IMG/VR virus record: IMGVR_UViG_3300031772_000003
Coordinates: 62,001 to 126,000 of that record
Reading direction: 5' to 3' (one strand)
Length of the DNA: 64,000 nt
Origin: a virus
The notes beneath the pieces are model-generated. The model was not told the DNA's origin and did not search any database. It was given only the letters and a program-made list of their open reading frames with translations. The translations under genes were made by a program, and so were the position numbers. Shown in pieces: positions 19,019 through 60,067 of this stretch (positions are counted from its first letter, which is position 1; the number at the start of each line of letters is the position of its first letter).

Positions 19019-19029
19019 CAGCCACGTCC

Positions 19030-39263: not shown

Positions 39264-39296
39264 GCGGGATTCCAAAGAGCCTTCGATCTTCCCTCT

Positions 39297-39313
39297 CACC
39301 CCTAGAATCAAGT
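39297..39313 (-). promoter_or_regulatory. Upstream motif copy 7
   Basis: Perfect ACTTGATTCTAGGGGTG, about 33 bases before the tRNA-like gene, with no protein start between. Confidence 0.6.
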
Positions 39314-39801: not shown

Positions 39802-39829
39802 TGGCTCGCTCCTCGGGTTACCCTCCCCT

Positions 39830-39846
39830 CACCCCTAGAATCAGGT
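39830..39846 (-). promoter_or_regulatory. Upstream motif copy 8
   Basis: Minus strand ACCTGATTCTAGGGGTG, one mismatch; its TGA is the stop of the upstream small gene. Confidence 0.55.
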
Positions 39847-39999
39847 GAGCTTGCCCAGGAAGCAGCGGGACCAGTCCCAGCCAAGACAGCCGAGGTCCAC
39901 CACGGGGCCTTTGTGCTCCCATATCCTGGGGTGAAACCTGTAGTAGGGCAGGGTACCGGAGCCCTGCTGCAACTTGGCTAGAATGTCCTGAGCCGTCAT
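39841..39999 (-). pseudogene. FkbM-type methyltransferase N-terminal remnant, 52 aa
   Basis: The frame (ATG overlapping the previous stop) ends after GPVVDLGCLGWDWS, which resembles the start of the SAM-binding motif of FkbM-type methyltransferases, preceded by TLPYYRFHPRIW typical of the same proteins' N terminus. The catalytic domain is missing; the TGA falls in motif copy 8. Could also be a small independent gene. Confidence 0.4.
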
Positions 40000-40760: not shown

Positions 40761-40795
40761 AAAGCCACTCCATGAGAGCTACACCACCCACGGGG

Positions 40796-41629: not shown

Positions 41630-42273
41630 CGCCTCAGCACCATGCCAATGAGTTGACCTTCTACTGCGTCACACCGTACTGGGAAGACTAGGCGACGGCC
41701 TACGTACCAACCATCCTCCCAAGCCCTCCAATAAGTGAGGTCGATCATGGAGTCGAAAAGGGTAGACCACCTCTGCACATCCTCTGCGCAGATAGTTCGG
41801 CAGCCGGGGGTCGCTGCTTCCACGCTCTGCCGAACGTAGCCACTCCCTGTCTTCGTCCTGTGATCATGACTATAGCCACAGGTTATGACAATCACGGCTC
41901 CTGGCTTGGCAACCCGAGCGATGTGACCAAGAGCGGCGTCTTTATCGTACACATGTGGAAGGGCACTGACGCAAAACACTGCGTCATAGGCTGCACCAGG
42001 CAACTTACTTTTACAGATGTCATCCTGGGTCACCACCCCCGTCGACGGAGAAAAGTCAGTAACCGTAACGTCGTAGTTGATGCACATAAGCATTTGAGAG
42101 AGAACGCAGTATGGCCCGCAACCCACATCGAGAACTCGTCTTCCCCTAGCCTCCTTTAGCCAAGACAGGGCGTAGGGGTACTCGACAACGCGCTCGAATA
42201 CTTCAGGAGCCCTCCAAGTACGCCAGCCGCCCTCTTTTGAGCCATACGCTGCTGCTCTTATTTGCACATTCAC
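41626..42273 (-). CDS. Class I SAM methyltransferase, small-molecule type
   Basis: 215 aa. VLDVGCGPYCVLS is SAM motif I; AVFCVSALPHV and AKPGAVIVITCG fit the next motifs. Presumably methylates a glycan or precursor in this cassette. GTG start overlapped as GTGA. Confidence 0.82.
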   Translation of the reverse strand: MNVQIRAAAYGSKEGGWRTWRAPEVFERVVEYPYALSWLKEARGRRVLDVGCGPYCVLSQMLMCINYDVTVTDFSPSTGVVTQDDICKSKLPGAAYDAVFCVSALPHVYDKDAALGHIARVAKPGAVIVITCGYSHDHRTKTGSGYVRQSVEAATPGCRTICAEDVQRWSTLFDSMIDLTYWRAWEDGWYVGRRLVFPVRCDAVEGQLIGMVLRR

Positions 42274-43820
42274 TTCGGTCTCCTTACTACAATCCCAAGC
42301 CAGTGTTTAGACTTGCCAGACACCAAGCGAATGCTCGTAACAAGCTCAAACTGATGCCTGCAGCACAGAGCCAAAATCGAGCCTCGGTCATAGACCCTCA
42401 AGTGATCGGCACTCATCACACCACCTTCCGGCACTGTGACCACAACTACACCACCGGGTCGGAGTACTCTCTTTGCCTCAGCCAGGGCTTTACCATCATC
42501 CATCACATGTTCCAAAACCTCGCCCATTAGAACTGTATCAAAGCTGTGGTCATCGAGTGGCAAAGACTCCGCCAAGGCAGGAAGAAGTTTGGCGTGGACA
42601 CCCACGCTCATCAAATTGAGCTTGGCTTGTACGAGAGCCTCCCGACACACATCTACTCCTACAAGCTGTTCCACGCCGGTAACACGAGACGCCACAGCTA
42701 GCCCCACCCCATTAGAGCAACCCACATCCAATACGGCGGGTCCGTGGATGTACTTCGACATCCAATCGAACCGTGCGCGCAAGTGGGGATAGTGCTTATC
42801 GCCCGGAGACGACCACCGCTGCCACACTGTGTCAAGACGGGTCGTGCCGTTATTTCGGTCCCTTACGAATGCAGCCTCGTCAGCAGTCAACACAGTAGTA
42901 ATGTCAGGGAAGATTTCTCTATACCTCACTCTATGTGTATGGTTAGCCATTGCCGGGAGTGCCTTATCCCAATAGGTCTCGAATGGGTGGGAGAGGAGAG
43001 ATTCGAGGTCAGTTAGGCTATCGTAGTGGATAACATACGGGTCGAGGTCGCTCAAGCCATTACCAATAAGGTTACAGTTCGTGATAACAGCCGCGCCACT
43101 GGCAAGATACTCCATCAGCTTCGCCGGAATGAAATCACCATAACCACTCTCCGTAGGGCACACCAGTGCAGCAGCTTTGTACAAGGCATCCCAATAGGAA
43201 TCTTGGTCAAGCACGTCATTTATCGGTGGTGTAAACCCAATAACATGCCCCATCTTGCGGTAGAGGTCAAGGCGCTTCTCATAAGCCCCTGTTCTGCTCC
43301 TATAGCCACCAACAAACCAAACGCCCGACCTGCCTGGGTAGCCGTTGACAATACGCTGCTCTGACACTGACCATCGAAGGCACGGCACCCCCTCCCATGA
43401 TGCTGCATTCTCAAGACGTTGATAGTATTTCTGCTCCGTACCCATCTTAGGACAATACTCCGCAGACCTACGATTCCATACAGGCTGCCTACAATAGAGC
43501 TTATCAAACTGCCGATACCATTTGTCATCCTTCCTATAGTTCCATGAGTCACACTCCACGAAAACTTTGACAGTTCCTCTAACTTGCCGAAGGTCTGGCA
43601 ACCATTTTGCATAACGACGGCGCACCGTCCCGTAGAGGTAGTGGGGCTGGAAGGTGTCAATAGCGCGGTAGAGAGCCGACAGCGAGAGGTCGTGAACAAA
43701 GCCGGGTCCCCATAGACCAACCTCGACATCGGGTCCAACCTCATACATCCAATCGCTGTGGGAGGCGGCATTGAAGTTGGCTAGAGATGCTTTAGGGTAC
43801 AGGAAAAGAACACGTACCAT
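42270..43820 (-). CDS. Glycosyltransferase-methyltransferase fusion, 516 aa
   Basis: Residues 1-290 look like a CgeB/GT1-like glycosyltransferase domain (VCPTESGYGDFIPAKLMEYLASG near its C-terminal half). Residues 345-516 are a class I methyltransferase with motif I AVLDVGCSNGVG and DTVLMGEVLEHV, LRPGGVVVVT. A single polypeptide pairs sugar transfer with methylation, perhaps to cap a chain. Overlaps both neighbours. Confidence 0.75.
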   Translation of the reverse strand: MVRVLFLYPKASLANFNAASHSDWMYEVGPDVEVGLWGPGFVHDLSLSALYRAIDTFQPHYLYGTVRRRYAKWLPDLRQVRGTVKVFVECDSWNYRKDDKWYRQFDKLYCRQPVWNRRSAEYCPKMGTEQKYYQRLENAASWEGVPCLRWSVSEQRIVNGYPGRSGVWFVGGYRSRTGAYEKRLDLYRKMGHVIGFTPPINDVLDQDSYWDALYKAAALVCPTESGYGDFIPAKLMEYLASGAAVITNCNLIGNGLSDLDPYVIHYDSLTDLESLLSHPFETYWDKALPAMANHTHRVRYREIFPDITTVLTADEAAFVRDRNNGTTRLDTVWQRWSSPGDKHYPHLRARFDWMSKYIHGPAVLDVGCSNGVGLAVASRVTGVEQLVGVDVCREALVQAKLNLMSVGVHAKLLPALAESLPLDDHSFDTVLMGEVLEHVMDDGKALAEAKRVLRPGGVVVVTVPEGGVMSADHLRVYDRGSILALCCRHQFELVTSIRLVSGKSKHWLGIVVRRPK

Positions 43821-44449
43821 TACTGCCCCCTCCGAAACACAGCACCAATAAAGTCAGGCGAGGTCGGCACCATCCTCTCCAAAGTGAAGCTCTCACTAAT
43901 CTTGTCTATGACAACCGAGGGACTAGCCCATATCATCGACTCGAAGTTCCCCAGTTCGACGTGGCTTCTCCCCCTCTTATCCTTCCACCGTGTGGTCAAT
44001 TTCATACTCGTGGATAGCTCCAAGAGGAAATAGCCGCCAGGCATTAGAACTCTAACAACCTGCCCAATCACCTTATCTAGGTCGAATGAGTGGTCCAAGC
44101 AATTGGTGTAGACAATACACAAGGAAGAGTCAGCCGCAGGTATTGAATGGAAATCCCCCACAGTCACGTAGGGGTTACTCTCGCCAGGATACAAATCAAT
44201 GCCCTTAGCGCCCACGAACCCAAGCTGCCTCAACGCAACGACTTCTTCCCCCAGCCTAGCCCCCAAGCACAACACCCCAGGGCTTCTAGGTAAGCCCCCA
44301 GTAAGTATCCCAAGCCTGTCCACAATCCGAGATAACCTCTGGTTGAATGCAGCCTTGAACTCTGCTATTCCTGTCTGGAGTTTCGCGGCTTGGTGCTTGA
44401 TGTATGACTCGTAGTCAGGGTAATTTCGGTAGACAATGGGATTAGCCAC
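43820..44449 (-). CDS. SAM methyltransferase-like protein, 209 aa
   Basis: VLCLGARLGEEV (motif I variant with Arg), GIDLYPG, and LMPGGYFLLEL fit a class I methyltransferase with degenerate motif I. N-terminal helical part. Sits in the sugar cassette. GTG start with GGAG. Confidence 0.7.
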   Translation of the reverse strand: MANPIVYRNYPDYESYIKHQAAKLQTGIAEFKAAFNQRLSRIVDRLGILTGGLPRSPGVLCLGARLGEEVVALRQLGFVGAKGIDLYPGESNPYVTVGDFHSIPAADSSLCIVYTNCLDHSFDLDKVIGQVVRVLMPGGYFLLELSTSMKLTTRWKDKRGRSHVELGNFESMIWASPSVVIDKISESFTLERMVPTSPDFIGAVFRRGQ

Positions 44450-45257
44450 GCCGGGACTCCTTGAACAGCCGTTGGGCAGTTGCTACCATAGACGGAATCT
44501 CCAAGAGAGGGAACCGAGTACAAACACTTTGGTAGTCAGTCGTGTGACTACAAGACAAGAAATAGTCAAAGTAGCCCATGTAGTAAGCGTAGAAGAAGCT
44601 ATCCATCGGGTCAGGATTGGGGCGTCTGACTCGCCACAATCCGGTATGAACACCGTGGTGTGGACCAGACCCCTCCCAGTCTATTCGGTTTTCTTCTTTA
44701 GGTAGTCCAATCCCGGACTCTACCATAAGGTGGTAGAGAACCTCCTCGTTTCGCTGCTTCCCAAAAGCACCTGCGAGGAGCCTTCGCCTATAATCCTTGA
44801 GCAAGCCGCCCACAGCTTCATAGTAAGGACGCCTTCTAATGAAGTGCAGGCCAGACAACCGCTCCTGCCTTGGTCGCAAGCAGTTACTATAGGGTAACCC
44901 GTTAGCTTCACAGTGGCTTATATGGACAGCCTCAATACCCCGCTCCTCTGGGCAGAGCAAAATGTCTACGTCACCGATGTAAGCATTCTCATACGGCTCA
45001 AACACCAACTCATCCAGGAGCCAACGCAGTGTCTTGAGTGGCTGCCCTTTCAAAGGCAACTCTGATATGGGGTCTACGACAAAGCGATAGTCATGATCTA
45101 CAGGTACAGATGCTCGTATCTCCGCTGATACTCTATCCCGAGGGGTTGTCACCACCCGCAACCCGTAATCTGGATAGACCCGTGACAGGAACCACATGAA
45201 GTGCGGGAGGTATCGCTCATAGCCGCCACCAACTACCAAACCCACACAAGTACTCAT
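44442..45257 (-). CDS. Glycosyltransferase-like protein (DVD motif), 271 aa
   Basis: N-terminal GGGYERYLPHFMWFLSRVYP and the DxD motif in YIGDVDILL fit a GT-A glycosyltransferase; HTGLWR and HHG follow later as in GT8-like enzymes. Sugar unknown. The ATG overlaps the previous stop. Confidence 0.65.
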   Translation of the reverse strand: MSTCVGLVVGGGYERYLPHFMWFLSRVYPDYGLRVVTTPRDRVSAEIRASVPVDHDYRFVVDPISELPLKGQPLKTLRWLLDELVFEPYENAYIGDVDILLCPEERGIEAVHISHCEANGLPYSNCLRPRQERLSGLHFIRRRPYYEAVGGLLKDYRRRLLAGAFGKQRNEEVLYHLMVESGIGLPKEENRIDWEGSGPHHGVHTGLWRVRRPNPDPMDSFFYAYYMGYFDYFLSCSHTTDYQSVCTRFPLLEIPSMVATAQRLFKESRRG

Positions 45258-46219
45258 GCCCACACCATATTACTTTCGATGTAGTCCACGGTCTGCTTGT
45301 ATCCCAAACGCTGACCCCACAGGTGGCTTGCGTCAGCCACATCCCTATAATACGCAGGATCATCCCTCAATCGCTGGAGAGCTACGTACAACTCCTGTTC
45401 AGTGCAGGCTTTGACCACAGGGCAGCCCCCATAGTAACCAACGAACTGGCACTTGCCCCCACCGTAAACCGTGGGCAGACCCAGCCTCATTGCCTCCAAC
45501 CCGCTCTTGCCCACACCACCAAGCGGCATAATCTGGTCCACAAAGACATGGCACCTCGACTTGGTTTCGATAGCCTGGACATAGGGGACACCCCGTAGTA
45601 TCTCAATCGGGGTATGCAGTTGCTTGCAGACACTCTCAATAAGGTCAGTCCCTTTATCCTGCCCCACAACATGATACTTGGCTCCTGGGGTGTGGCAGAC
45701 CGTAAACTTCCTGAAGGGTGTGGAAGTATTGACAAGCTCAAAGGGCTGCATCAACGGCACCGCATCGGGGTCGCACCACAGAAGGTCGCACATGGCGAAC
45801 CTGCGAAGGCATGGCAGCCCGCCAACGTAACTATTGATCTTGTCGTGCCCAGCCCTGTACCTCGTACCTGACCAGAAAAAGATCAGGCTCTTACCGGCGA
45901 GCCACTTCGCTACAACGCTATTGCCTGCATCAGGAGCATGCGATAGCCTCATGCCCGTCTTCTTACTGAGGTACGCCGCAACAGTGATCAGCCCATGATA
46001 GTCACAGATAAACAGCTTCTTCACTCTGGACATTAGCCGGTCCACTGCCGCAAAGTCCTTGCCAACCATGAGACCGTCGCCAAACTGGTAGGGGGATGGT
46101 ATCGCCGTAATGAGGTGCGTCTTGTACCGAGCCGAGTAATTGCTGAACGCCTGGTTCAGGTTGACTGCACCGCCAAACCCGCCGTGGTGGGATACAAAGA
46201 GCATCTCTTCTTCACGCAT
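45254..46219 (-). CDS. Glycosyltransferase, GT4-like, 321 aa
   Basis: N-terminal SHHGGFGGAVNLNQAF and C-terminal GKSGLEAMRLGLPTVYGGG match the acceptor-domain start and the donor-domain motif of GT-B enzymes. Part of the cassette. The ATG at 46219 has GGAG seven bases upstream. Confidence 0.7.
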   Translation of the reverse strand: MREEEMLFVSHHGGFGGAVNLNQAFSNYSARYKTHLITAIPSPYQFGDGLMVGKDFAAVDRLMSRVKKLFICDYHGLITVAAYLSKKTGMRLSHAPDAGNSVVAKWLAGKSLIFFWSGTRYRAGHDKINSYVGGLPCLRRFAMCDLLWCDPDAVPLMQPFELVNTSTPFRKFTVCHTPGAKYHVVGQDKGTDLIESVCKQLHTPIEILRGVPYVQAIETKSRCHVFVDQIMPLGGVGKSGLEAMRLGLPTVYGGGKCQFVGYYGGCPVVKACTEQELYVALQRLRDDPAYYRDVADASHLWGQRLGYKQTVDYIESNMVWA

Positions 46220-46985
46220 CCCAATACTCCGTTGTGAGCCAAGACTCACCCACGTTGATATAGTCGAAGACCGCCCGTGCCATCTCGTGGTCTACCTGCC
46301 CCACCCGCTTACTCTCAACCTGTATAGCAGTAAGAATGTCATCCAGTCCCCCCCACGGGATCGCGCTCGGCTGTCCTCCATTGTAAATCGACCTACGACC
46401 CATAAGCCCCAACTCCACCACGCTATTGGCGATCCCATCATGGGGCGTCAAGCGTATCCCCAAGAAGCACCGCTCGTAGATACCTCGAAGGGCAACGCGG
46501 TCAAACTGGTACGGACTCTCCACGACGTTGACGCCGAAGCCACACCGCTCCACAACGCGGTCAAGAAGGTCTTGGCGATAAAACTTGGGCTTGGTCTTAG
46601 GTGCGTAGGCGTAGATTTCTGAACCTAGCGGGGTCGGTGAGAAACCATTCATGTCCGACCCCACAATCGGAACGACCTTGCAGGGGACGTTAGCCTTTGC
46701 GAGATCGTCCTGTATAAATGAGGATATGGCAAGGTGCCTCACGTTAGGCTTGGTCATGACTTTCAATGCCGTGGGTGGGAACTTCATGATGTCGGAACCC
46801 CGCCATAGCACTATGGCTAGCCCTTTGTGCCTAGATAAGGCTTGGGCATCGTCAGGTGTGTACAGCCCATAGAAAACAACGGGGGCGGAGGGATCGGTGT
46901 AAGGACTCAAGCCATGCCGATCCACGAAGGGTCCAAATGACTTCTTCACGATCGCACTCATCCTACACTGACCGATCCTACTCAC
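46212..46985 (-). CDS. Glycosyltransferase-like protein, 257 aa
   Basis: GVNVVESPYQFDRVALRGIYERCFLGIRLTPHDG with NSVVELGLMGRRSIYNGG resembles the C-terminal donor domain of GT-B glycosyltransferases. N-terminal motif weaker. GTG start overlaps GTGA. Confidence 0.55.
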   Translation of the reverse strand: MSRIGQCRMSAIVKKSFGPFVDRHGLSPYTDPSAPVVFYGLYTPDDAQALSRHKGLAIVLWRGSDIMKFPPTALKVMTKPNVRHLAISSFIQDDLAKANVPCKVVPIVGSDMNGFSPTPLGSEIYAYAPKTKPKFYRQDLLDRVVERCGFGVNVVESPYQFDRVALRGIYERCFLGIRLTPHDGIANSVVELGLMGRRSIYNGGQPSAIPWGGLDDILTAIQVESKRVGQVDHEMARAVFDYINVGESWLTTEYWDA

Positions 46986-47686
46986 GCCTTGCCCCTCATG
47001 TATTCTAGCGACCTCTGCCGAATCAGCTTATCACACGCCTTTTGCTTCGCCCTACCCGACGTTGACATGCTACCAGGTCGTGGGTGCCGATACACGTAGG
47101 TCACCACGGGTACATGCTTAGTCGCACAGCCCGTCTCCCCAAGTAGGACGGCTATCTGATAGTCTACCGCTGAGGAAATCGAGGTATCGAGACCCCGGCT
47201 TTTGCGGTAAAAATCCAGGGACCAGAACTGCTGACACCCCGCTCCCCACCACCCACAGTTACAAATCGCGCTCCATAGGGTAGTACCAGGAGGGAGGGGT
47301 TTGCTCCACCCGTGCCTATCGGTTCCCATAAACTTCCAGGCCGTCCATACATAACCGACAGACGTATCTTGAAAGGGGGGTACACCCACGGACAAGCTAT
47401 TAGACATCAGGGTATCATCACTGCCCAAGAACGTCACCACGTCGCCTGTGGCAGCGTCCAGGGCAGCTTTGAGGGCGGCGGCACAACCGCCGTGGGGGAG
47501 CTTGAGCAGGGTAACAGGCTGGCCCGCTATGAGGCTTTCCACAACGTCGGCAGTATCATCCGTCGAGCCGTCATCGGCGATGATCAACTCCCACTGCTTA
47601 TGGGTCTGGGCGAACACAGAGCGGATCGCCTCAGCTATATAGGGGGCAGTGTTGTAACATGGAACCAACACGCTTACCACTTTCAT
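46982..47686 (-). CDS. GT2-family glycosyltransferase
   Basis: 234 aa. SVLVPCYNTAPYIAEAIRSV and ADDGSTDDTADVVE are the GT2 nucleotide-sugar motif; GDVVTFLGSDDTLM supplies the DxD-like site. Transfers a sugar from a nucleotide donor, probably inverting. ATG overlaps the giant gene's stop (ATGA). Confidence 0.9.
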   Translation of the reverse strand: MKVVSVLVPCYNTAPYIAEAIRSVFAQTHKQWELIIADDGSTDDTADVVESLIAGQPVTLLKLPHGGCAAALKAALDAATGDVVTFLGSDDTLMSNSLSVGVPPFQDTSVGYVWTAWKFMGTDRHGWSKPLPPGTTLWSAICNCGWWGAGCQQFWSLDFYRKSRGLDTSISSAVDYQIAVLLGETGCATKHVPVVTYVYRHPRPGSMSTSGRAKQKACDKLIRQRSLEYMRGKA

Positions 47687-50600
47687 GCTCTCGCTCTGAT
47701 ATTCACAGGCTGCCATTCCCCTGATGGAAGCTGAATGCCGGTGACATGGACGGAACGGCCTTTGAGCAATCGAATCTCCTGCTCCTCCTCACCCAAGGAT
47801 GGTTGGCAGCGGGCGAACAGCGTCCCCTTCCAGTCAACACTCTTTGATGGAACCGACGCCCGGAGGACGACGCAGGGGCCCCCATGCCCCCAATGGCACT
47901 CCGCTTTGTCCTCCTCGTCAGCCCAGTAGACTCCAATCCCCCGTGTCCGGATGTGCTGCCACACCGTAGCGGGATCAACCGGGTCAACGTCGATGGCCCG
48001 GTACAGCACCAGGGGGTCGGACATCCCAGCAATGCCCTCAAGAGCATCGTCCAGAGCCCGCTCGATCTCTTCCCGAACCATCTTCTCCGCACGAGCATCC
48101 ACCTCCACATCCGTCGCGTCGTCCCCAAGATCCTCCCGGGCGAGGTCAGCATAATTGTTTATCTCGTCCACGGAGTCGTGCAGCACCGCTGCAACCATCT
48201 CCTCCCGCTCCTCGTCGGTCAGTTCAGGGGCGAGGCTATAGGTGCTGGGCTGGAATGACTCCGCGACCTGCTGCCCCTGGTCAACCACCCGTTTCACAAC
48301 GCCAGCCCGACGTACAGTAGGGGGTCGTCGCTTACTTGCTTGCCTTGCCATATCATCATTCACCCATGCAGGAGCTACGTCATAATCCTGCTCTCGCCAA
48401 ATATCCGCACGGTGGTTCCCATCATTGATCACGACACTACCATCCACCTCACGAGTAACTACGATAGGAGGGAAGCCCCTACCAAAACTCCGCTGAAGCT
48501 CATCCTCTGGGTAGGACTCAACCTCAGAGCGAGCCTGCAGCTCACGGGCGAGTAGTTCCACGTCGCTGTCATCATACCCATCATCGGGGTCCCACGGCAA
48601 GAAATCGCGCCAGTTATCAAACCCAGAGCGATGATATTGCGTCTCCCCCGCGGTCCACCTCTCCAGCATCTCCTCAGCCTGCTCCATAAAAACAGGGTCA
48701 AGCTCTCCCTCGCCCTTACGTAGGGCTTCTGCACCCTGCTTCTCCACACGCTGCGGCTTCAGGTCAGCTAGGTCAACCATAGCGGTATAGACAAAACGGT
48801 CTGGCTTAACACCCACGAATTGAGCCACCGTCTGCTGCGTCCACTTACCGTAATTGTCCGTAGCATCCCAATCATGCTCCGGCGCTTTTCCCTCGTAGTC
48901 ATCCACGGGCTGACCAAGAGGGGGCACCGCAGCTTCAAGCAGGCTCTCGGTTACTTGCTCCCCCTGCTCGACCAACTTCTGGATCTGGTCATACCCGTTC
49001 TCGACCACAACCTCAGCGACCGGGTGCTGGTCAATGTACCTTCGGGCATTCACCAGCTTGCCCGTGTGCTTCAACGCCCGCAACGGCTCACGCGACGTGA
49101 TCGCTCCCAACTGAATCATCTGTGTGGTTACGTCCGCGAGCTTCCCCTTGTCCTTACCTACCAACACCCTCCTTCGAACTTCCTCTCCTTCCACGTCCAC
49201 CTCATCCCCAACAAGGAAACCACTACGTTCCTGGGGGTTCTTGAGGATCACACGAAAGGTCTTGCCGTCTGGGGTCTTGGCAGTAACTTGCTCGAACGGG
49301 AAGGGAGCTAGATCAGGATGATCTATGCCTACTTGTTCCTGTATCCCGGACTCGTCCCGCTCGACCAGCTTCTGAATCTGCTCATGTGCGTTCTTCAACA
49401 GTGCGGCAAGTCCGAAGTGTTGGGGCTTGACCCGGTACATCTCCTCCCACGTCACCCACCTATGGCCCTCCGTCTCCCAACCATGTCCAGGCTCGAACTC
49501 CTCCGGGACGATGCCGAGGAAATTGGAGTACTGGAACCCCTCAGTAGTATAGACATAACTCGGCACTAGCTCCATCGAGCCCGTGTACCCCGTCTCCTCA
49601 ATGAACTCGCGTCGAGCCGCGGTCTCCGGTGCCTCGTCCTCGATGCGACCCCCCCAGATGCCCCAAGTGTGGGGCTCGTTGACCTCGGAGCTACGGTAGG
49701 CCAGCAGGAACCGGCCCGTGGAGGTGCAGAGGGGGAGGATGCCTGCACCTTGATCGCCCCAGAAATGGCGGCCAGCAGTATTCGCGTAGTAGGTGCCGTG
49801 GGGGGTAAGAGCTTCGATAAGGGCACCGGCATTGACACAGCGGTCCAGATAATCCACCGCGTCCTCCTGGGACAGGTAGCGATGGTGGTGGGTTATGTTA
49901 GAGTCCCACCACTCAAACTCCACCTCTGGGCAGTCATCAGGAGATTGGCCAGCCACAAGCTCCCGGAGGGTCTGGAGAGCGGCCACGGCAAATGGTGCTT
50001 TGCTGCTGCCTATCTGTACCTTGAACCCTGAACCATCGTCTCCGGGACGGATACGGATGCTCCCCGCATCCAGGGCAGCCTGGAAGCCATCCTTGCCATA
50101 CTTACGCTCAGCCCTAGCGACATGGTGTAGCCCACCACCCCAGGCATTGGTGCCGTGGTCAAACGAACCATCAGACCATACCCATGCACCATAGGGACCA
50201 ATCTCGTAGGGGCTGAGGCGGGCTTCCTGCACACTCTCCTCCTGCACCTGCCCCGCGATCTGAATCCACTGCCGCACCAGGTTCTTCATCTCCCACACAG
50301 TCATCGTCTCACCGGGAACCTCGGACTCAACACCGACCTCTGTAGTTAGCTCCACCGTAAAATGTGCGGAGGTGTGGGCAAGAAGGTTCAAGAGGGTGAG
50401 GTATGCAGCATTGGACGTAAGCCCCGCCATTGGGGGGGCACAACGCACGAACAAAGTAAGGTCCTCTAAATTGACAAGGATGCCCCCATGCTCAATACCC
50501 AAGCGGATGCCGGCGGCGTCATCCCGATCATCATCCGGGACAGCGGGCGCATACTTGTCATAAGCCGCCTTTGCATGGAAATAGCCGGTCTCAATCTCCC

Positions 50601-53600
50601 CATCACCCCATATCCACGTCCCATTCTCAGCCACGTCCTCAATGCTCGCGTAGGCTTCGGAGAGAGATTCCACCACACTACTAGCCTTTATCCGTAGCTC
50701 ACGGAGCCTGTCCTCAAGGGGGGTCCAATCTACCGCCTGACCAGCGATCACCCGTATATCCACGTCAGACTCCCCATATGGCCTCTCAAACTGGCCTGTC
50801 TCCTGATTTAGCTTTGCACCACCACCGGCAGGTTGGCGATGATTAGATAGTCTAATCTCTAGCCCATCCTCTCCATCAAACAACTCAAATTGTAGATACC
50901 ATGAGTCTGCGAAATCATGACAGTTATCTTGCCCGCCTAAGTGAATCAAACCCACAGACTCACACCGCTGAATCACCTCATCTGCTGCCAGAAGCAGGGC
51001 ATCTCTATATGCAAGAGCCGCTTGGTAAGTCTCCTCCGCCTCCTGCTTCTTTGCAGCATCCTCTTCGTCTTGCTCGCTATCACGTAATGCAGCATCATAG
51101 AGACTTGCCTCCCACGCCTCGTCCGAATCGTAGTCTCGCCTTGGGAAGGCATCCAGGAGATCGGGTAAGTACTGCCTTAGCTCATCCGGCCAGTCATCCC
51201 CTATAACCTCACACACCACCCTGTCCAACTGCCCCACGTCATCCACGACTTTGCTCTGCTTGAACCAGGCACGGAACTCCGGGGTGTCCGTGGCGAGCCT
51301 GGGGTCGGTAGCCTCCGTCAGGGCTTCTGCCGTCCAACCGGGTTGAAATGGGATACCAGCCGCGGGCGCTATGCGGGGGAAGTCCATGTAGAAGTCATCG
51401 GGCAACCCCGCCCGCTTCGCATGCCTCTTGGCCAGCGCCAGGAGCTTAGCGGCCTTGCGCTCACACTCCTCAGCATCCTTTGGGTAGCCCAGCCGCTTCC
51501 ACTCCTCCACCTCATCCTGTTCCTTGATCGCCATCAAGTAGTAGTGCGTCGCAAGAGAGTAGGACGGAATCCTGTAAGCCCCCTCACTCAGCGCCATGTC
51601 CAGCGAGCCCACGGTGCGGGCATCCACCACGAACCGCCCTTTGCCCATCAAGAACTGCACCGCCAGTTCATACTGAGCCTTCCAGTCAGCCCGCTGCCGA
51701 TCCTGCCAATGGGTGAGAAAGTCCCGGTCAGTCCGCTCGATTGCGGAGTAACCCGGCATGCTCCTGCCCTGGAAGTAGGAGAGGTCCTGCCACTGCTCCC
51801 CCAATTTGATCTCAGTCTTCTTGCCATCTTTCCCACTGAACGTCACGGTGCCAATGGTGAACTCTTTGCCTGTCAAGGAGCCGTCACCCACGTATCGTGT
51901 GATAGCTTCTGGCTTCAGGTAGGCAACCGTTGCGTGGGCGTGGTACTCGGGGTGCGTGTCGGTACACTTGAGGTTATCCGAGACGAGCTTGTTGAGCCGG
52001 TCCAAGCCGGCACTCTCGATGTCGTACTTCAACACAGCGGCGTTATCCGAGGATTCGCTAGGAGGGAAGGATGAAAGCTTGCCAAACTTGATCGTGACCC
52101 GCTCCTCGCCCTTGAGGGGCTTCTTCACTTCCTCCGGGTCGGAGGTGTGCAGCCCGTACTTTATCGTAATGTGGGCCTCTGTCTCCCGACCATCCCCCAT
52201 CAAGTCTTCGTCCTTGACCCGCATACCCTGCGCGAGTATGCCCTCCTTAGCCCCACCAATGAGGTCGGCTTGCAGGCAACCATAATCGTGGGTCTCCTCA
52301 TTTAGAGCCGCGTCCAACGCACCGATGGTGCGAGCCTCAAACGTAACGATCTTCTTGGGATTAAATGCGTCCTTTAAGTCGCGCAGCAACGCCTCGGGAA
52401 TGGGCCGATAGCGCTGTGCCTCCGGGGGCACTACAGAGACCCAACCAGTCCGCGCATCGTACCTGCCTTTGTAGAGTTTACCTGCTACTCCTGGACCAAA
52501 CTCTATGTCGTGTGATCCAGGAAGGTTGATCCCCTCGTGATCCCTAACATTGATTACCAAACCCCCCGGCCCAGTCCACATCCAGATGGTATGGATAAGA
52601 CTTTCTTCATCTTCGTCCTCTCCCCCCTGATCGTGCCCGATCTGAAAATAGAGTTCAGCGGCTTGATCCGCAGGGTCCTGATCCTCATAGGGATCAAAAT
52701 TGGGGTAAATAGTAGATCCCCGCTCGGTGGCTTTTGCAACTTCCCGCTTCCACGATACCGGCCTCTTGGCCTCACTCAGCATGCGGTCTAGCCCCCCTAC
52801 TGTGGCCTCAGCGGGCACCCCTCGGGGCTCGGGCCTGGCCCGACTTGGGTCATAAGCGGCGGGTCCCGCTGTAGACAAGCGCTGGAACTCCTGCTTCGCC
52901 AGTTCCATGATCTGGTCTACCAGAGCCTTCGCCTCCGGATCGCCCTCCACGGACTGGTACAGGACCCGGTACTTCCGGGTATCCTCCCACCGGGCCTCCG
53001 GCCCCTTCTCCCGCACCAGTTCCCAGTACTCAGCCGCCAGTTCCGTGGCATACGCCCGCTGCTCCCCCGGCCATGAGAAGTAGTAGCCGGCATTCCTGGA
53101 GCCGGCGTAGGTCGTGGGCCAGTCCCCTAAGTCCGTCCGTGCCTTGTCTTCGATGGCGTGGTAGGTCTCGTGCGTCATGATGCCAGCAAACTCTTCCACG
53201 AATCTCCTATCGGACACCCAAAGATAAATTGCGCCCTCACCGGGCGAGTACATGCCCCCACTTCCAGCCCCGGAATCAGCCCCCGGCGTATACGTGAGTC
53301 CGCCCCCATGCGTCTTGATGTGGACCCGCATCCCAAACAGGTCCCAGCGAAACTTGTCCAGCACCTTCGGGTCTTTGGGCGTAGGAAGCCCCGATGCTTC
53401 CAAGTCCTGGATTATGATGTCGATGGTCCGCTGGCCGATGACCTCACGTAGAGTAACGGTATAGTCCACACCTACCGGAATCTTCCCATTGAGTTCCTGC
53501 GCCCATCTGCGGGCCTTCTGATAGATCAATGCTGGGACCAAAGATTCGACCAGCAAGTCCAGTTCGCCCACGGTGTGGGCATCAGCGGACATCGCATCCT

Positions 53601-56600
53601 CAATCACAGGGGCCTCGCCTGCCGGGGTGACGGAGTCCAGGGCGATCTCCTGAATGCCGGCCCTACCGGGCTGCTTGTCTGGGTGCCACGAGCCTGTCCG
53701 CCTAACGCGCCACACCCGCGTCGGCGTCGCAGAGGCCAAACTCGCCAAGGGCTTGCCCTTGAGGACCCGGAGGAGCTCTGCCCTGTCATAACGGGTGAGG
53801 GCCCGGAGGATTTGCTTGCCGGCCATCGGCACCGCGGGGTAATCCCCACCAAGTGCGAGGCGGAGAACCCTGGGGGTAACGTGCCGCTTAGCAAAGTCGA
53901 GGAGCCAATCAAGGCTCTTGAGAGTCTCGGCAGGGGTGTAGCCCATGTCGGGATGTACCCGCACGAGCTCGGCATAATGCTCCGGCCTCTCTTGAACCAT
54001 CTCGATCCACAGGAGAAGGCCCCCCACATCATCCTCATCAGGGTCCACGTCGGTCAAGGCGGACCCTGGCACCTCGAAGACATAACCCCATGGCTCCTCC
54101 TCCACAGGTATGCCGGGGTGGTTAGCGTAGGAAACGGCCTCCCCAAAAGACGGAGTCAGGTAGACCGCTTCCCGCCGAGCCTGTTGCCATCCCCGTTCCC
54201 TGCTCCCCCCTAACGGCTTGAGGCCCTCCCGGACAATGGCATCCGCTGCGGCTTGAGTGGGGCACCCGTGGTAGTAGGCCGTGGCCCGCATCGGCTCATC
54301 GGGGGTTGGGGCCTCCATGAGGGATTCAACGAGGTGGGCCAAGCTGCCGATGGACTCCTCAACACCCACGTCATATTCCTCATCATTCAGCTTTGCCCCA
54401 TAGTAGCCAGGCTTCTCGTAATACTGGTGGGTCCAGTAGTCCAGCATGTCCTCTGGTACTGTGTCGGCCCGTTGCCACCGACCGCCGATGAGAATATCGT
54501 ACTGGCTGGGCTCAAGCACTCGTTCCTCATAGTCGCCAGTGTCCACATATCTATCATTTGGGAATGCCCCACACTGTTGCAGCCTATCGTCCAAGAAATG
54601 AGCGGGGATACGGACGGCGACCCTACTCCGCGCGAGGGACGCATCATCGAGCCAATTAGCCTCGGTAGTAACATAGAACCTGTAGGTTCCCTCCTCATCG
54701 GGGTCCTGATCCGCCCACCTGTTCTCCTCCCGGGGGATGTCCACAAAAGAGCCGGGCATATCACCGGGATGGGCGGTGTAGAGGCCCTGCCGCAACAACG
54801 CTCGCATATCACCTTTGGGATGATAGCGGTAGTAATAGCTTCCCCTGTGCTGCTGATGTGCAACCGTGTCCTCGGCCAAGGACTCCTCAGCCCTACCCAC
54901 GAGCAAGGAGGACATGGGGACTCGTTCCCAGCCGTCTTGTGGGTAAAGGTTCTGCTCCGGGCCCTGGATCAGGTCCTTCCGCCACATCCTATCCGGCCTC
55001 AACACCCCGTGGTGAGCAATGACAATAGGGCTCAGGGCAATAAGCTCCTGCTTCTGCTCCGGTGTCATCAGGGTAAGCAGACACTTCGTGTTCGCTGCCA
55101 AGGGGTTCTCCGGGTTATCCTGCTCAGCCATCTGCCACAACCAGTCAGGGCATGTCTGCCCGTACTGCCCATCCCACGAAAGAATATAGGACACCTCGGA
55201 GTCATCAGGCTCAACATCCATGAGAGCGGAGCCGGACACCCCAAACACGTATCCATACCGCTCGTCACTATTCGAGGCATAGTCCGCGGCGACCCCAAAA
55301 TCAGGTGTCAAGTACACCCTACCACGAGTTGGGCAGGCTGCGGGTCCACCCATCTTATCCCACGGTTGACTATACGATCTATCGGGTTGAATCCCAGACC
55401 TCGCAATCGCCCGTGCCTTCCGGGTCGTGGGGCAGCCGTGGTAGTACATCTTCTCGGCCTGCTCCTGTGACGGAGGAGGGGATTCCTGAAGAGCCTCTGA
55501 GAGCAGGGAGGACAAGGGGTACGCTTTCCAACCAGACTGATCCCAATAGTGCCCCTCACCAGGATGACGCAAGCGCCAGACCCGTGTAGGCACCACAGGC
55601 CCCAGATGGGCCACGGTCAATGGCCTCTCCCGCATCACCTCCTGCTTTTGCTCCGGGGTCATTCGCCGGAGGATTTCACGGGGATCGGCCATGTGGGGGC
55701 TACCAGGATCGACCGCAGCAGCTATATCATGGAGCCAATCGGGGGTATCATCACCCCACAGGAGGCTGCCCACCCTATCCTCATCGGGCTCCACGTCCTG
55801 CAGGGCCGAACCGGGCACCTCGAAGATGTAGCCATCAGGCGGGTAGTCATCGGGGATTCGCGGGTCATGCCCGGACGTAAGAGCATATTCCACAGCAACC
55901 CCAAAATCAGGTGTGAGGTACACGCGCCCCTGCATCGGCTCCACCCGCGGAGACCAATGACGACTCGGTAACTGATCCGGTCTGATCCCAAATCGAGCGA
56001 TCTCATTGGCCCTTCTTGCGCTGGAACAACCATGGTAATAGGTCTGCTGGGTCTGTGTCTCAGAAGGGGGCGGGGCCTCGATGAGCATGGCCCGGTCAAG
56101 GGACCCAATAGATTCGCCTACCAACTCAAACAATAACTCCCCACCCGTTCCTCTTACAGGTGCCCCCTGCATCTCAGGGAACCGCTGCTCGATTGCCTCT
56201 ACAGCATGATGCACCTTCAGTTTCGCCCCACGATCCCACCTCTCCCACATACCATAGAACTCAATTCCCCACTCCGCCTCCACAGCATCAGGTGGGTAGA
56301 AGCAACCCCGCTGAGATATGATTTCCTGCTGATCCACATCACACAGCAGCCCACCTCCCTCAGTGTAGCCCAAGACATCCCCACGCTTGTGTCCCGCCCT
56401 CCGAAGCAACCAATCCAGGAGTATTGGCACATGATCTTCCACTGTGGTCATCGTGACCCTGTAGGTGTCCTCATCGCTACCCTCCTCATCATACTCCTCA
56501 TCATCTTCTATCCCCCACTCCCGCGGCTCCCCTTTGACAGACACCCGCAACAATGTTAGCAGGGCTTTACTGCCGTCCATTGTCAAGAGCCCAGTCTCGC

Positions 56601-56955
56601 GTGACCATACAAAGTAGACCTCGCCCAGCTTGCGGGAGAGCAGGGCTTCCATGGTCGGTCGCTGCCGGTAGCGCCGCTCCACCTCCGTAGCCGCAGCGTG
56701 CGCCCGCTCGTAGTCCCATCCCTGAAGCATCAGAGATCGCTCATAAGTTTCGTGGACCAGCACAGCGGGCATCTCAACGGGCTGGACGCCGTTGTCGATC
56801 CAGATTTCGTCTTGGGGGATGAAGGCGTAGCGGCAGCCATTCCCGCCCTGAGAGAAATCCAAGTCGTAGGTATCGCGGACGGCCCTGCCGTCCACGATCC
56901 AGACTTTGAGGCCCTGTGTCGTGCCCCAGTAATGGATGTAGGGGGAGGGCAGCAT
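47683..56955 (-). CDS. Giant polyvalent protein/polyprotein, 3090 aa
   Basis: ATG at 56955 has GAGGG upstream. Modules in order: a zincin-like HETYERS segment (about 70-110); ART-like copies A (306-475) and B (503-690) with YYHGC and VYLTPDFG; another ART-like region (about 700-830); ART-like copy C (894-1090); HETYH zincin (1262-1266); a domain of unknown fold; 2H phosphoesterase (HIT 1595, HAT 1674); helical domains; duplicated YG-W-DG modules (2101-2380); NUDIX box (2434-2456); ParB-like NDGNHRA (about 2850); C-terminal R-S-E type ART (2900-3090). Most junctions carry LxE|A-like sites, several preceded by VGSLD. Probably a packaged effector polyprotein matured by a prohead protease; untested. 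Confidence 0.8.
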   Translation of the reverse strand: MLPSPYIHYWGTTQGLKVWIVDGRAVRDTYDLDFSQGGNGCRYAFIPQDEIWIDNGVQPVEMPAVLVHETYERSLMLQGWDYERAHAAATEVERRYRQRPTMEALLSRKLGEVYFVWSRETGLLTMDGSKALLTLLRVSVKGEPREWGIEDDEEYDEEGSDEDTYRVTMTTVEDHVPILLDWLLRRAGHKRGDVLGYTEGGGLLCDVDQQEIISQRGCFYPPDAVEAEWGIEFYGMWERWDRGAKLKVHHAVEAIEQRFPEMQGAPVRGTGGELLFELVGESIGSLDRAMLIEAPPPSETQTQQTYYHGCSSARRANEIARFGIRPDQLPSRHWSPRVEPMQGRVYLTPDFGVAVEYALTSGHDPRIPDDYPPDGYIFEVPGSALQDVEPDEDRVGSLLWGDDTPDWLHDIAAAVDPGSPHMADPREILRRMTPEQKQEVMRERPLTVAHLGPVVPTRVWRLRHPGEGHYWDQSGWKAYPLSSLLSEALQESPPPSQEQAEKMYYHGCPTTRKARAIARSGIQPDRSYSQPWDKMGGPAACPTRGRVYLTPDFGVAADYASNSDERYGYVFGVSGSALMDVEPDDSEVSYILSWDGQYGQTCPDWLWQMAEQDNPENPLAANTKCLLTLMTPEQKQELIALSPIVIAHHGVLRPDRMWRKDLIQGPEQNLYPQDGWERVPMSSLLVGRAEESLAEDTVAHQQHRGSYYYRYHPKGDMRALLRQGLYTAHPGDMPGSFVDIPREENRWADQDPDEEGTYRFYVTTEANWLDDASLARSRVAVRIPAHFLDDRLQQCGAFPNDRYVDTGDYEERVLEPSQYDILIGGRWQRADTVPEDMLDYWTHQYYEKPGYYGAKLNDEEYDVGVEESIGSLAHLVESLMEAPTPDEPMRATAYYHGCPTQAAADAIVREGLKPLGGSRERGWQQARREAVYLTPSFGEAVSYANHPGIPVEEEPWGYVFEVPGSALTDVDPDEDDVGGLLLWIEMVQERPEHYAELVRVHPDMGYTPAETLKSLDWLLDFAKRHVTPRVLRLALGGDYPAVPMAGKQILRALTRYDRAELLRVLKGKPLASLASATPTRVWRVRRTGSWHPDKQPGRAGIQEIALDSVTPAGEAPVIEDAMSADAHTVGELDLLVESLVPALIYQKARRWAQELNGKIPVGVDYTVTLREVIGQRTIDIIIQDLEASGLPTPKDPKVLDKFRWDLFGMRVHIKTHGGGLTYTPGADSGAGSGGMYSPGEGAIYLWVSDRRFVEEFAGIMTHETYHAIEDKARTDLGDWPTTYAGSRNAGYYFSWPGEQRAYATELAAEYWELVREKGPEARWEDTRKYRVLYQSVEGDPEAKALVDQIMELAKQEFQRLSTAGPAAYDPSRARPEPRGVPAEATVGGLDRMLSEAKRPVSWKREVAKATERGSTIYPNFDPYEDQDPADQAAELYFQIGHDQGGEDEDEESLIHTIWMWTGPGGLVINVRDHEGINLPGSHDIEFGPGVAGKLYKGRYDARTGWVSVVPPEAQRYRPIPEALLRDLKDAFNPKKIVTFEARTIGALDAALNEETHDYGCLQADLIGGAKEGILAQGMRVKDEDLMGDGRETEAHITIKYGLHTSDPEEVKKPLKGEERVTIKFGKLSSFPPSESSDNAAVLKYDIESAGLDRLNKLVSDNLKCTDTHPEYHAHATVAYLKPEAITRYVGDGSLTGKEFTIGTVTFSGKDGKKTEIKLGEQWQDLSYFQGRSMPGYSAIERTDRDFLTHWQDRQRADWKAQYELAVQFLMGKGRFVVDARTVGSLDMALSEGAYRIPSYSLATHYYLMAIKEQDEVEEWKRLGYPKDAEECERKAAKLLALAKRHAKRAGLPDDFYMDFPRIAPAAGIPFQPGWTAEALTEATDPRLATDTPEFRAWFKQSKVVDDVGQLDRVVCEVIGDDWPDELRQYLPDLLDAFPRRDYDSDEAWEASLYDAALRDSEQDEEDAAKKQEAEETYQAALAYRDALLLAADEVIQRCESVGLIHLGGQDNCHDFADSWYLQFELFDGEDGLEIRLSNHRQPAGGGAKLNQETGQFERPYGESDVDIRVIAGQAVDWTPLEDRLRELRIKASSVVESLSEAYASIEDVAENGTWIWGDGEIETGYFHAKAAYDKYAPAVPDDDRDDAAGIRLGIEHGGILVNLEDLTLFVRCAPPMAGLTSNAAYLTLLNLLAHTSAHFTVELTTEVGVESEVPGETMTVWEMKNLVRQWIQIAGQVQEESVQEARLSPYEIGPYGAWVWSDGSFDHGTNAWGGGLHHVARAERKYGKDGFQAALDAGSIRIRPGDDGSGFKVQIGSSKAPFAVAALQTLRELVAGQSPDDCPEVEFEWWDSNITHHHRYLSQEDAVDYLDRCVNAGALIEALTPHGTYYANTAGRHFWGDQGAGILPLCTSTGRFLLAYRSSEVNEPHTWGIWGGRIEDEAPETAARREFIEETGYTGSMELVPSYVYTTEGFQYSNFLGIVPEEFEPGHGWETEGHRWVTWEEMYRVKPQHFGLAALLKNAHEQIQKLVERDESGIQEQVGIDHPDLAPFPFEQVTAKTPDGKTFRVILKNPQERSGFLVGDEVDVEGEEVRRRVLVGKDKGKLADVTTQMIQLGAITSREPLRALKHTGKLVNARRYIDQHPVAEVVVENGYDQIQKLVEQGEQVTESLLEAAVPPLGQPVDDYEGKAPEHDWDATDNYGKWTQQTVAQFVGVKPDRFVYTAMVDLADLKPQRVEKQGAEALRKGEGELDPVFMEQAEEMLERWTAGETQYHRSGFDNWRDFLPWDPDDGYDDSDVELLARELQARSEVESYPEDELQRSFGRGFPPIVVTREVDGSVVINDGNHRADIWREQDYDVAPAWVNDDMARQASKRRPPTVRRAGVVKRVVDQGQQVAESFQPSTYSLAPELTDEEREEMVAAVLHDSVDEINNYADLAREDLGDDATDVEVDARAEKMVREEIERALDDALEGIAGMSDPLVLYRAIDVDPVDPATVWQHIRTRGIGVYWADEEDKAECHWGHGGPCVVLRASVPSKSVDWKGTLFARCQPSLGEEEQEIRLLKGRSVHVTGIQLPSGEWQPVNIRARA

Positions 56956-57311: not shown

Positions 57312-57413
57312 CTAATGTAGCCCGCTCGTGCTGGCTGTGGCAAGGATATACTCCTTAGCTGTTAGATCACAGGGGACTGTGACACTCCACAACCAACCTT
57401 GAACAAGGTGCAT
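57312..57413 (-). CDS. Possible 33-aa peptide gene
   Basis: An ATG with AGGA upstream begins 12 bases after the previous stop. Ends before the G run that is the next SD. Hydrophobic start (MHLVQGWLWSV). Leader peptide or small protein; unrecognised. Confidence 0.4.
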   Translation of the reverse strand: MHLVQGWLWSVTVPCDLTAKEYILATASTSGLH

Positions 57414-57425
57414 TTTCCTAGCACG

Positions 57426-57776
57426 TCAAATGACCGGAGACTGCCACACATGTCCTGAATCAGCCTCGGGGTCGAGCAACGCTACCATGAGGTCGCGCGC
57501 CGCCGCCCCACCCGATCCAATGATGCGGAGGACCTTGGCCGAGGTGACCTTCTCCACGCGCAGATCGGTCCCACCCCCATAGGCACCGAGGTTAAACGTG
57601 GTCACGAGATCGGTCCACGTTGAGCCATCCACGGAGCCCTGAATCTTGAGTGCGAGGGTGCCGGTGGTGAGGTTCCACAGGACGAGACAACGCGACGAGG
57701 GGTTGGCGGAGTGGATATTCAAGACGGTGCCGGAGGCCGCGGGCACGGGGAGGATGTCGAAGCTGACGCCGATCAT
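57426..57776 (-). CDS. Beta-rich hypothetical protein, 116 aa
   Basis: Almost all beta strand with Gly/Thr turns (LALKIQGSVDGSTWTDLVTT). This resembles small phage head or tail decoration proteins with an Ig-like or jelly-roll fold; no family match. Overlaps the large charged gene (ATGA). Confidence 0.5.
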   Translation of the reverse strand: MIGVSFDILPVPAASGTVLNIHSANPSSRCLVLWNLTTGTLALKIQGSVDGSTWTDLVTTFNLGAYGGGTDLRVEKVTSAKVLRIIGSGGAAARDLMVALLDPEADSGHVWQSPVI

Positions 57777-60067
57777 CGGGGTCTCCTCTCCAGACGCTCC
57801 ATGAGAACGCCCTCACGCCACCGCTGGGAGGATTCCAGGATGAGACGAACCGCCGCAGCGGGGTTACGGAGGACCGTGCTGTTGAGGTAATTTCGAGCCC
57901 GAGCCAAGCGCTCAGGAGTCAAGTTCCAGAGACGTTGGGCTTTGGCATCCCACTCACAGGACCCGGGCGCGTCGTCCTCAAGTCCCGCGGGGCCAAGTCG
58001 CATTATGTTCTCCGGCACAGCCACGGGACCAATACGGTCGATGCCGACCCACTGGGCCTCACCGGTCTCAAGCTCCACGAGGCACTTCAGCCTACGGGCG
58101 TCCACAACGACGCCTTCGAGAGGGCTGCCGTCCTCCATGATGACGAGGACGGGCATGCGGGGGGTGAGACCCTCGCGCGGTAAATCATCCACGAAATGCT
58201 CGGCGTCGCCCTTCGAGACGCCCTGCCCACCCTGGCCCCCCTCCAAGGGGTCACAGGGGGCCGCGAGGTCGTGGCCGGGGGCCTTGATGTCGAGCACCTG
58301 AAGCACGGTCTGGATCGCCCCGGGGGCGTAGTGAATCGTGACCGTGGGCCTGCCAGGATCATTGTCGCACCTGATTCCGTGGCCCTCAAGCTCCGCGATC
58401 AGGGCGGCACGGGCCGCCAGAGGGACGGTAACGGCATGTGACTTGCTGCCTCCCTCGGGATCGTTAGTAGCAGGCACGGGCTTGGGAGGAGGAACGGACA
58501 TCGGGTCCACGGCCTCCTTAACAGCCTCGCCCCGTGAACCACGCGCCCAATTTCGCTGCCCACACCGCAAGCATGTACGCGGCGTGAACATTCCCTCTCC
58601 CTCTGGGTCCCACAAAAATGCTCGTCTGCACTTCTCACACTGAAGCCGCATGAGCCCACGCGCTTCGGCACCGGGCCATATTGTCCCCCGCTCCCCCTGC
58701 GCTACGACCTTTTCACTTACCCTCTCCTCAGCCAGCAACTTGTCCACATCCGCGAGCAGGCCCTCTCCGCCCTCCCATCCCATCACGTCCCGTCCCGTAA
58801 AGTAGCCTCTGGGATTCGATGGAATAGGCTCCTCGGGTTCCTCCTCATCATCTTCGTCTTGAAGTTCACCCTCGGGTTCCTCACCCCCCACACCCGGCGG
58901 CTCGGCAACGCTCAGGTACTCATCGGGCAGGCTCGTGATGTCCTCCAAGTGGCCCCACCAATCCTCCGGGAGCGTCGAGGGCCTGCCGTCCCAGTCATCT
59001 GGAGCCTCTACCACACCAGCAGCGACAGCCAGCGCCGCTTGGTCCCAGACAGAATCGACATAGAGCGTCGATCCATCCTCAAAGTAGACCTCAATGGCCC
59101 CACCCGTCCCCGGTAGGGTCCAGACCTCGCAGGGGACGTGGCCGGGAGGCAGATCACTGGCCTCCTCCTCGTCCCTGCCTACAGTGAGAGACGCGAAATG
59201 GGGGTCACCCGCGGCGACCTCGGCCAAATAGCGGTCCACCTCCTCCTCAACAGGAATCTCGCCCTTCAACTCCACATCCTTGCCACCACGCTTGGGCCAG
59301 CCACCCTTCCCCTTGGGCTTCTTACCCTTCTTGCCCTTGCCACGGAGCCACGGCGGCAGGCCCTTGCCTCTTTTCTTCGGGGTGGGCTCCTCCTCATCAT
59401 CCTCACCGCGGTCCATGGGACCCTTGCCCTTGAGCAGCTTGGCAATCGCGTCGGAGTCCTTGCCCTTGGGCTTATCCTTGGGGCGAACGTCTTTACCCCC
59501 TGGCTTCGGCTTCAGCGGAGGTTTACCCCCCATACCACCAGACCCCTGCAACTTGTCTTTGGGCAGTTCCGTCCCATCCTCTTCGTCCTCTGGCTCCTCC
59601 TTGCCCTTGGCCCACTTAGTCTTGAGAGCGGCGGGCATGGGCGGGCCGGGCCGTTTCTTACGACGTTCCTCGATGGACTCTATGATGGGAGCCGCTGCAA
59701 GTTGGTCCTCCACGGTCGTATCCTCAATAGACGAAGCAGGGTCAGCAGGGGGCTCGTCCCCCCGCAGATCAATCTCCGTGAGAGCATCGGCAGGGTCCGC
59801 ATCCCCATCCACGGCGGCGGGAGGGGACGGAGCAAATGCCTCCACGATCTTGGGAAAGGGACGGGGCGCGGGAACAGGAGCAGGAATCCCGCCCAGCATC
59901 CCAAGCGTGCCTTCATCCAGGCCAAGTTCCCCAACGGGAGCAACGGACTCCACGATGGATTCACCGCCACTTGGGCCCATCATCTCCAAGAGGCCCGCCT
60001 GGTCATCGGGAGCAGGCTCGGGCGGGGTCGGTCCTGGCATAGGGGGGAGGGGTGGCATATCAACCAT
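57773..60067 (-). CDS. Highly charged, LxE-rich protein, 764 aa
   Basis: Pro- and acid-rich N terminus (1-100), a Lys/Gly-rich repeat region (about 135-275, KGKGKKGKKPKG type), acidic middle, a zinc ribbon (CEKC and CLRCG, about 480-510), and a C-terminal globular part. Many LxE/IxE triplets (LTE, IVE, IIE, LAE) near small residues resemble prohead-protease sites. Basic-plus-acidic composition fits a DNA-binding internal head or scaffold protein. ATG with GGAG eight bases upstream. Confidence 0.55.
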   Translation of the reverse strand: MVDMPPLPPMPGPTPPEPAPDDQAGLLEMMGPSGGESIVESVAPVGELGLDEGTLGMLGGIPAPVPAPRPFPKIVEAFAPSPPAAVDGDADPADALTEIDLRGDEPPADPASSIEDTTVEDQLAAAPIIESIEERRKKRPGPPMPAALKTKWAKGKEEPEDEEDGTELPKDKLQGSGGMGGKPPLKPKPGGKDVRPKDKPKGKDSDAIAKLLKGKGPMDRGEDDEEEPTPKKRGKGLPPWLRGKGKKGKKPKGKGGWPKRGGKDVELKGEIPVEEEVDRYLAEVAAGDPHFASLTVGRDEEEASDLPPGHVPCEVWTLPGTGGAIEVYFEDGSTLYVDSVWDQAALAVAAGVVEAPDDWDGRPSTLPEDWWGHLEDITSLPDEYLSVAEPPGVGGEEPEGELQDEDDEEEPEEPIPSNPRGYFTGRDVMGWEGGEGLLADVDKLLAEERVSEKVVAQGERGTIWPGAEARGLMRLQCEKCRRAFLWDPEGEGMFTPRTCLRCGQRNWARGSRGEAVKEAVDPMSVPPPKPVPATNDPEGGSKSHAVTVPLAARAALIAELEGHGIRCDNDPGRPTVTIHYAPGAIQTVLQVLDIKAPGHDLAAPCDPLEGGQGGQGVSKGDAEHFVDDLPREGLTPRMPVLVIMEDGSPLEGVVVDARRLKCLVELETGEAQWVGIDRIGPVAVPENIMRLGPAGLEDDAPGSCEWDAKAQRLWNLTPERLARARNYLNSTVLRNPAAAVRLILESSQRWREGVLMERLERRPR

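Follow-up and report, generated by a model that had tools for sequence, protein, structure and literature searches.

Two kinds of phage protein are already known separately: internal head proteins that carry a tag cut by the prohead protease gp21, and polyvalent proteins. In T4, the internal proteins IPI-III and Alt have the tag at the N-terminus, one per gene; residues 4 and 7 of IPIII mediate targeting and residues 8 and 10 processing (PMC9026906), and the N-termini of IPII and IPIII read MKTYQEFIAE↓A (the arrow marks a cut, established or predicted). In phiKZ, 201phi2-1, and SPN3US, the head protease also trims packaged, ejected proteins after Glu, although this is removal of a propeptide rather than separation of many mature modules, and at another motif (PMC10052503, PMC9026906). 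Polyvalent proteins, encoded by phages and conjugative elements, such as P1 DdrB and gp205 and gp321 of Tunturi_5, are chains of ART, NUDIX, 2H, ParB-like, and peptidase-type modules predicted to be packaged and injected; Iyer et al. 2017 proposed that zincins process them, and the N4 virion RNA polymerase is packaged uncut (PMC5512222). Here, we describe a giant open reading frame (ORF), g155, in a 64,000-nucleotide stretch of virus DNA (the window), positions 62001-126000 of the 163,716-base IMG/VR record IMGVR_UViG_3300031772_000003 (G000), the remainder of which was also examined. We think it probable that g155 and a second giant ORF, g184, encode virion-packaged polyvalent polyproteins whose conserved spacers act as internal capsid-targeting and prohead-protease sites, so that the modules between them would be cut apart and injected.

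Gene calling with our own script gave 196 genes in G000, nearly all on the minus strand, and upheld the frame on which the original prediction was built:

47683..56955, minus strand: giant ORF g155, putative polyvalent polyprotein, 3,090 aa

The frame opens with an ATG at 56955; an alternative TTG at 57000 would give 3,105 aa. The second ORF, g184 (3,974 aa, G000 140539-152463, equal to 539-12463 of contig L008), lies outside the window, is built like g155, and had gone unnoticed; together they occupy 13% of the genome.

What is repeated in both proteins is a 13-residue spacer of the form ESIGSLDRMLSE↓A (consensus E-S-I-G-S/G-L-D-R-M/A-L-S-E-A), longer than the LxE motif originally pointed out. 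There are 16 spacers in the genome, 5 in g155 and 11 in g184, with about 0.3 false hits expected over both proteins, and no product of the other 194 called genes scored above 13 bits, compared with 22-38 bits for true spacers. At identical spacer residues, codon sharing was 0.36 against 0.379 if independent, and the spacers have diverged widely in DNA sequence; the synonymous codons are randomised, which shows that the peptide itself has been kept by selection and was not freshly copied. In 15 of the 16, an [LIVF]xE occupies the consensus position or lies no more than a few residues from it, and the lone spacer without it forms the last 13 residues of g184, where no downstream module is left for release. 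Spacers fell inside homologous blocks in 2 of 16 cases against 9.1, a count that carries no weight, as it is biased by paralogue alignments made with the spacers masked.

By comparison, the bare motif [LI]xE[AGS] occurs 13 times in g155 against 7.5 in shuffled sequences (P=0.04) and 10 times in g184 against 8.5 (not significant); by itself, LxE density is therefore weak evidence. For LDxxLxE, the counts are 4 in g155 and 5 in g184, with 0.36 and 0.37 expected, a level reached by 0 of 1,000 shuffles. The original prediction, in which a gp21-like protease cleaves a packaged polyprotein, was based on LxE sites at module junctions. All 12 sites it listed exist (its numbers giving the P1′ residue): 294, 882, 1396, 1554, and 1792 end full spacers, and 488, 696, 2101, 2245, 2382, and 2675 end shortened ones (SLLSE, ESLAE, ESLSE, ESVQE, GALIE, and ESLLE, respectively). 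However, one or two of the listed sites are weak, with 1882 little supported, and two spacer-like sequences had been overlooked: DVGQLDRVVCE↓V and TVGELDLLVE↓S, which separates an ART from a peptidase within a supposed 514-aa module. The stated basis of the proposal is alone only marginally above chance, but the proposal itself is well supported by comparison: there are a protease, T4-type head genes, a conserved capsid LxE, and module homologues whose start either coincides with a predicted cut or bears a capsid-targeting sequence of the T4 type.

When aligned on the cut, the spacer L, M/A, L, and E at P7, P4, P3, and P1 coincide with T4 IPIII residues 4, 7, 8, and 10. This signature fits exactly in 10 of the 16 spacers, compared with 13% of other [LIVM]xE sites, the reference tags having been picked by hand. 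The T4 internal proteins and Alt (PMC9026906) thus share with g155 and g184 a short tag with hydrophobic P7/P4/P3, a P1 Glu, and a small P1′, as well as a gp21/gp23-type head and ART cargo, but the tags of g155 and g184 are internal and repeated, and neither ORF begins with one. Like the polyvalent proteins, g155 joins several conflict-related enzyme domains (NUDIX, 2H, ART, HExxH) in one chain, and its modules are homologous to those of other polyvalent proteins, with E-values down to 4e-52. Unlike them, g155 and g184 are longer and linked by a conserved spacer resembling a capsid tag, and the release we propose is via the prohead protease, not an embedded metallopeptidase.

No gp21-like protease had been seen in the window, and the suggestion that it be sought outside was borne out: g069 (508 aa, G000 57335-58861), a gp21-type protease-scaffold, lies 3.1 kb beyond the window's edge. 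Pfam S78 and S77 searches of the genome returned no protease, while the PHROGs search matched g069 to the head-maturation protease phrog_207 (5.5e-19). Aligned to T4 gp21, g069 has the conserved HP and SSRG motifs (catalytic His and Ser) and a C-terminal LxE↓AM like that of T4. It precedes a Gp23-type capsid gene (3.7e-43). With a T4-type portal (5.5e-32) elsewhere in the record, a terminase (identified by eye), and sheath, baseplate, and tape-measure genes, the virus has the gene set of a contractile phage of the T4 superfamily. Opposite T4 FLTE↓A in the alignment, the capsid protein reads LKE↓A, its predicted maturation site, and [LMV]xE is kept in all 20 sister capsids readable there (LDES, LNES, LDET, MEES, MEED, LEED, and others), which points to the specificity of g069 independently of the polyprotein.

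Homologues of the modules allow the junctions to be read from outside. The T4-like contig L015 encodes an ART homologue of g155 (31% identity, 2e-20) that starts with METFMKTFKTFKTFISE↓M (MKTFKTFISE↓M), which is a capsid-targeting sequence in the style of T4 and takes the place of ESIGSLDRAMLIE↓A in g155; a second tag-like stretch in this frame, MKTFKIFVE↓S (Phe at P3), is followed by a methyltransferase-like module. This gene contains one in-frame TAG (L015 7256-7258), which could be a sequencing error, decay, or recoding. In Tunturi_5 and three other contigs, long polyvalent proteins have homologous modules linked by K/R-x-A↓A, and BLAST alignments with these Tunturi_5-type phages start, in query and match alike, with the predicted P1′ residue: LIE↓APPPS against KTA↓APLHD and KTA↓APISQ, and, at a second boundary, LME↓APTPD against KHA↓APIHD. 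Elsewhere, the 2H and NUDIX modules occur as separate genes with starts near g155 junctions, and the standalone NUDIX of SCTP-2 begins with MRLDNVDNVDNVDRILFE↓S (...VDRILFE↓S); no further SCTP-2 gene with the same tag was found in 150 kb. Similarly, four sister phages carry module 1630-1905 of g184 as a gene by itself, which begins at the junction VTE↓SILD. In three of the four, the basic tail of its product corresponds to the very end of g184, a pattern such as the insertion of further modules into an older gene would leave. No close relative of g155 or g184 was found in IMG/VR, the C-terminal 2,859 aa of g184 had no match in phage records, and alignments of the peptidase module, searched in viral contigs, and of the ART module, searched in genomes, gave none.

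Several related observations concern other phages. A tail of the form [ILV]xE-[MIF]T-x-SGAxGxYxVPLGAxP plus a basic stretch is common to proteins of the clade (L041, L063, L064, L065, and the g184 C-terminus) and may be another capsid-targeting signal. Contig L010 (LR756508) has a row of ART-like genes, each opening with an LxE-ended tag (MKLKRVLQSLLSE, MKLKKVYENLISE, MKLKNLLSE). Tunturi_5 and its relatives (L012, L016, L028, L032, L033) encode polyvalent proteins with recurrent K/R-x-A↓A linkers, and the motif recurs close to the ends of the protease, scaffold, portal, and capsid proteins of these phages. In Tunturi_5, it is enriched in gp205, gp350, the scaffold gp332, and the portal gp7, and not significantly enriched in gp225, gp273, and gp321, so a link to the head protease is suggestive only.

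Along g155, the predicted modules and junctions are as follows.

56077..56955, minus strand: module 1, aa 1-293, no Pfam match
56077..56115, minus strand: spacer 1, ESIGSLDRAMLIE↓A, aa 281-293; homology to KTA↓APLH junctions begins at A
55495..56076, minus strand: ART-like module 1 (YYHG...); L015 homologue with N-terminal capsid-targeting sequence; model and Foldseek weakly ART
55495..55515, minus strand: short spacer LSSLLSE↓A
54871..55494, minus strand: ART-like module 2
54871..54888, minus strand: short spacer EESLAE↓D
54313..54870, minus strand: module aa 696-881
54313..54357, minus strand: spacer ESIGSLAHLVESLME↓A; coincides with a homology boundary
53587..54312, minus strand: ART-like module 3
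53545..53574, minus strand: spacer-like TVGELDLLVE↓S, aa 1128-1137
52771..53586, minus strand: HExxH metallopeptidase-like module, HETYH at aa 1262; two paralogues in g184
52771..52806, minus strand: spacer ATVGGLDRMLSE↓A
52297..52770, minus strand: module aa 1396-1553
52297..52332, minus strand: spacer RTIGALDAALNE↓E
51583..52296, minus strand: 2H phosphoesterase-like module (HITI/HATV), weakly like anti-CBASS Acb1
51583..51618, minus strand: spacer RTVGSLDMALSE↓G
50656..51582, minus strand: modules aa 1792-2100, EALTE↓A inside, VVESLSE↓A at end
51208-51240, minus strand: spacer-like DVGQLDRVVCE↓V, aa 1906-1916, within modules aa 1792-2100
49813..50655, minus strand: two GTWIWPDG-type modules, ending GALIE↓A; four paralogues in g184
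50224-50241, minus strand: EESVQE↓A, dividing the two GTWIWPDG-type modules
48934..49812, minus strand: NUDIX module, aa 2382-2674, ending TESLLE↓A
47686..48933, minus strand: C-terminal ParB/sulfiredoxin-like (DGNHR) and ART-like modules; homologues; assigned by sequence motifs

The NUDIX module matched its family at 2.5e-13 and the 2H phosphoesterase at 6e-6, just below the cut-off, while the g184 copy of the ART-like module matched Arr-ms at 1.1e-5. An AlphaFold model of an ART-like module reached a pLDDT of 77, and its best Protein Data Bank matches were all ART-superfamily toxins, weak at E ~0.01. Further types are a nucleotidyltransferase-like module, a ParB-like stretch with DGNHR, and a JAB-like motif; no similarity to tail or fibre families was found.

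We propose that the long chains would be synthesised late and that the spacers would bind the prohead core, so that each chain is packed. During head maturation, g069 would cut after the Glu of each spacer, a specificity supported by the capsid protein and the module homologues, and about a dozen or more modules would be freed from each chain. The ART, NUDIX, 2H phosphoesterase, metallopeptidase, and nucleotidyltransferase modules would then accompany the DNA into the host, which they would disarm or redirect. We infer packing and cutting and, from the module types and the precedents of T4 Alt, the T4 internal proteins, and polyvalent proteins, also injection and an anti-host role.

Several observations weigh against this proposal. 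The bare LxE motif is barely above chance, the Glu is shifted or missing in 6 of the 16 spacers, and the Pfam S77 score of g069 is 20.8 bits, under the curated cut-off of 27. While g184 is close to the portal gene, g155 sits among glycosyltransferase genes away from the head genes. A DNA pattern for ESIG[SG]LDRML had no match in IMG/VR, and no spacer was found in 24 stretches around sister capsid and terminase genes. In addition, the three HExxH modules, one in g155 and two in g184, could perform the cutting instead. They underlie the main rival, which we consider unlikely, namely that a packaged polyvalent protein is released by embedded zincin-type metallopeptidases, as proposed for other such proteins, or stays uncut like the N4 polymerase, the spacer being a packing tag or linker only. 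That rival is harder to reconcile with the junction residues, which agree both with the site in this phage's capsid protein and with the consensus of T4 gp21, and with the L015 and SCTP-2 homologues, which bear LxE-ended N-terminal tags without a linked peptidase.

The spacers could also be conserved flexible or docking linkers of an intact large head or tail structural protein, with the modules as binding domains. Long repeat-rich virion proteins are common, spacer conservation requires only a binding role, and the spacer at the g184 C-terminus lacks a cut site; the modules, however, are enzyme-like, occur as single genes in other phages, and resemble no tail or fibre family, which makes this reading improbable. 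That the LxE motifs arose by chance in an ordinary multidomain protein, neither packaged nor cut, would fit the near-expected count of the bare motif, but it is already disfavoured by 16 selected copies of a 13-mer and by homology boundaries that fall at the sites, and we give it very little credence. Beyond this phage, there is about an even chance that tailed phages use a general polyprotein strategy, in which a chain of many injected effectors has junctions that serve as packing tag and head-protease site and change with the specificity of the protease from one lineage to another (LxE↓A in this phage and K/R-x-A↓A in those of the Tunturi_5 type).

Just upstream of g155 lies a gene that, as a guess, could encode a head-core protein:

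57773..60067, minus strand: g158, 764 aa, charged, Pro-rich, scaffold-like, several LxE[AS] sites

On its other side, g155 adjoins a cluster of glycosyltransferase and methyltransferase genes (window 38291-47617). The gene g184 is located downstream of the portal and terminase genes; the portal g191 (G000 155129-157279) carries an intein (Pfam Intein_splicing, 6e-11), and intein-like insertions were judged by eye in the terminase g192 (157279-159510) and the AAA ATPase g026 (17672-19633). Repeat-rich ORFs are present at the record's end (G000 163170-163715, EALGCSHEAAEVEVAPCFGG repeats) and at G000 8380-9201 and 128788-129714 (LSSLTTVPEGFAPQAGG repeats).

No description of a tandem-tagged polyprotein joining the two known ideas was found in the open-access literature searched, most subscription papers being outside that scope. 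If the proposal is true, tailed phages would, like RNA viruses, make use of a polyprotein, but one tied to capsid maturation; a dozen effectors made as a single chain would be certain to be packed together and would come apart only within the head. The spacer peptide, considered as a transferable packing tag (ESIGSLDRMLSEA), would suggest a modular way of loading several proteins into phage heads, and injected effectors would become predictable from sequence through a junction peptide shared with the phage's capsid cut site.
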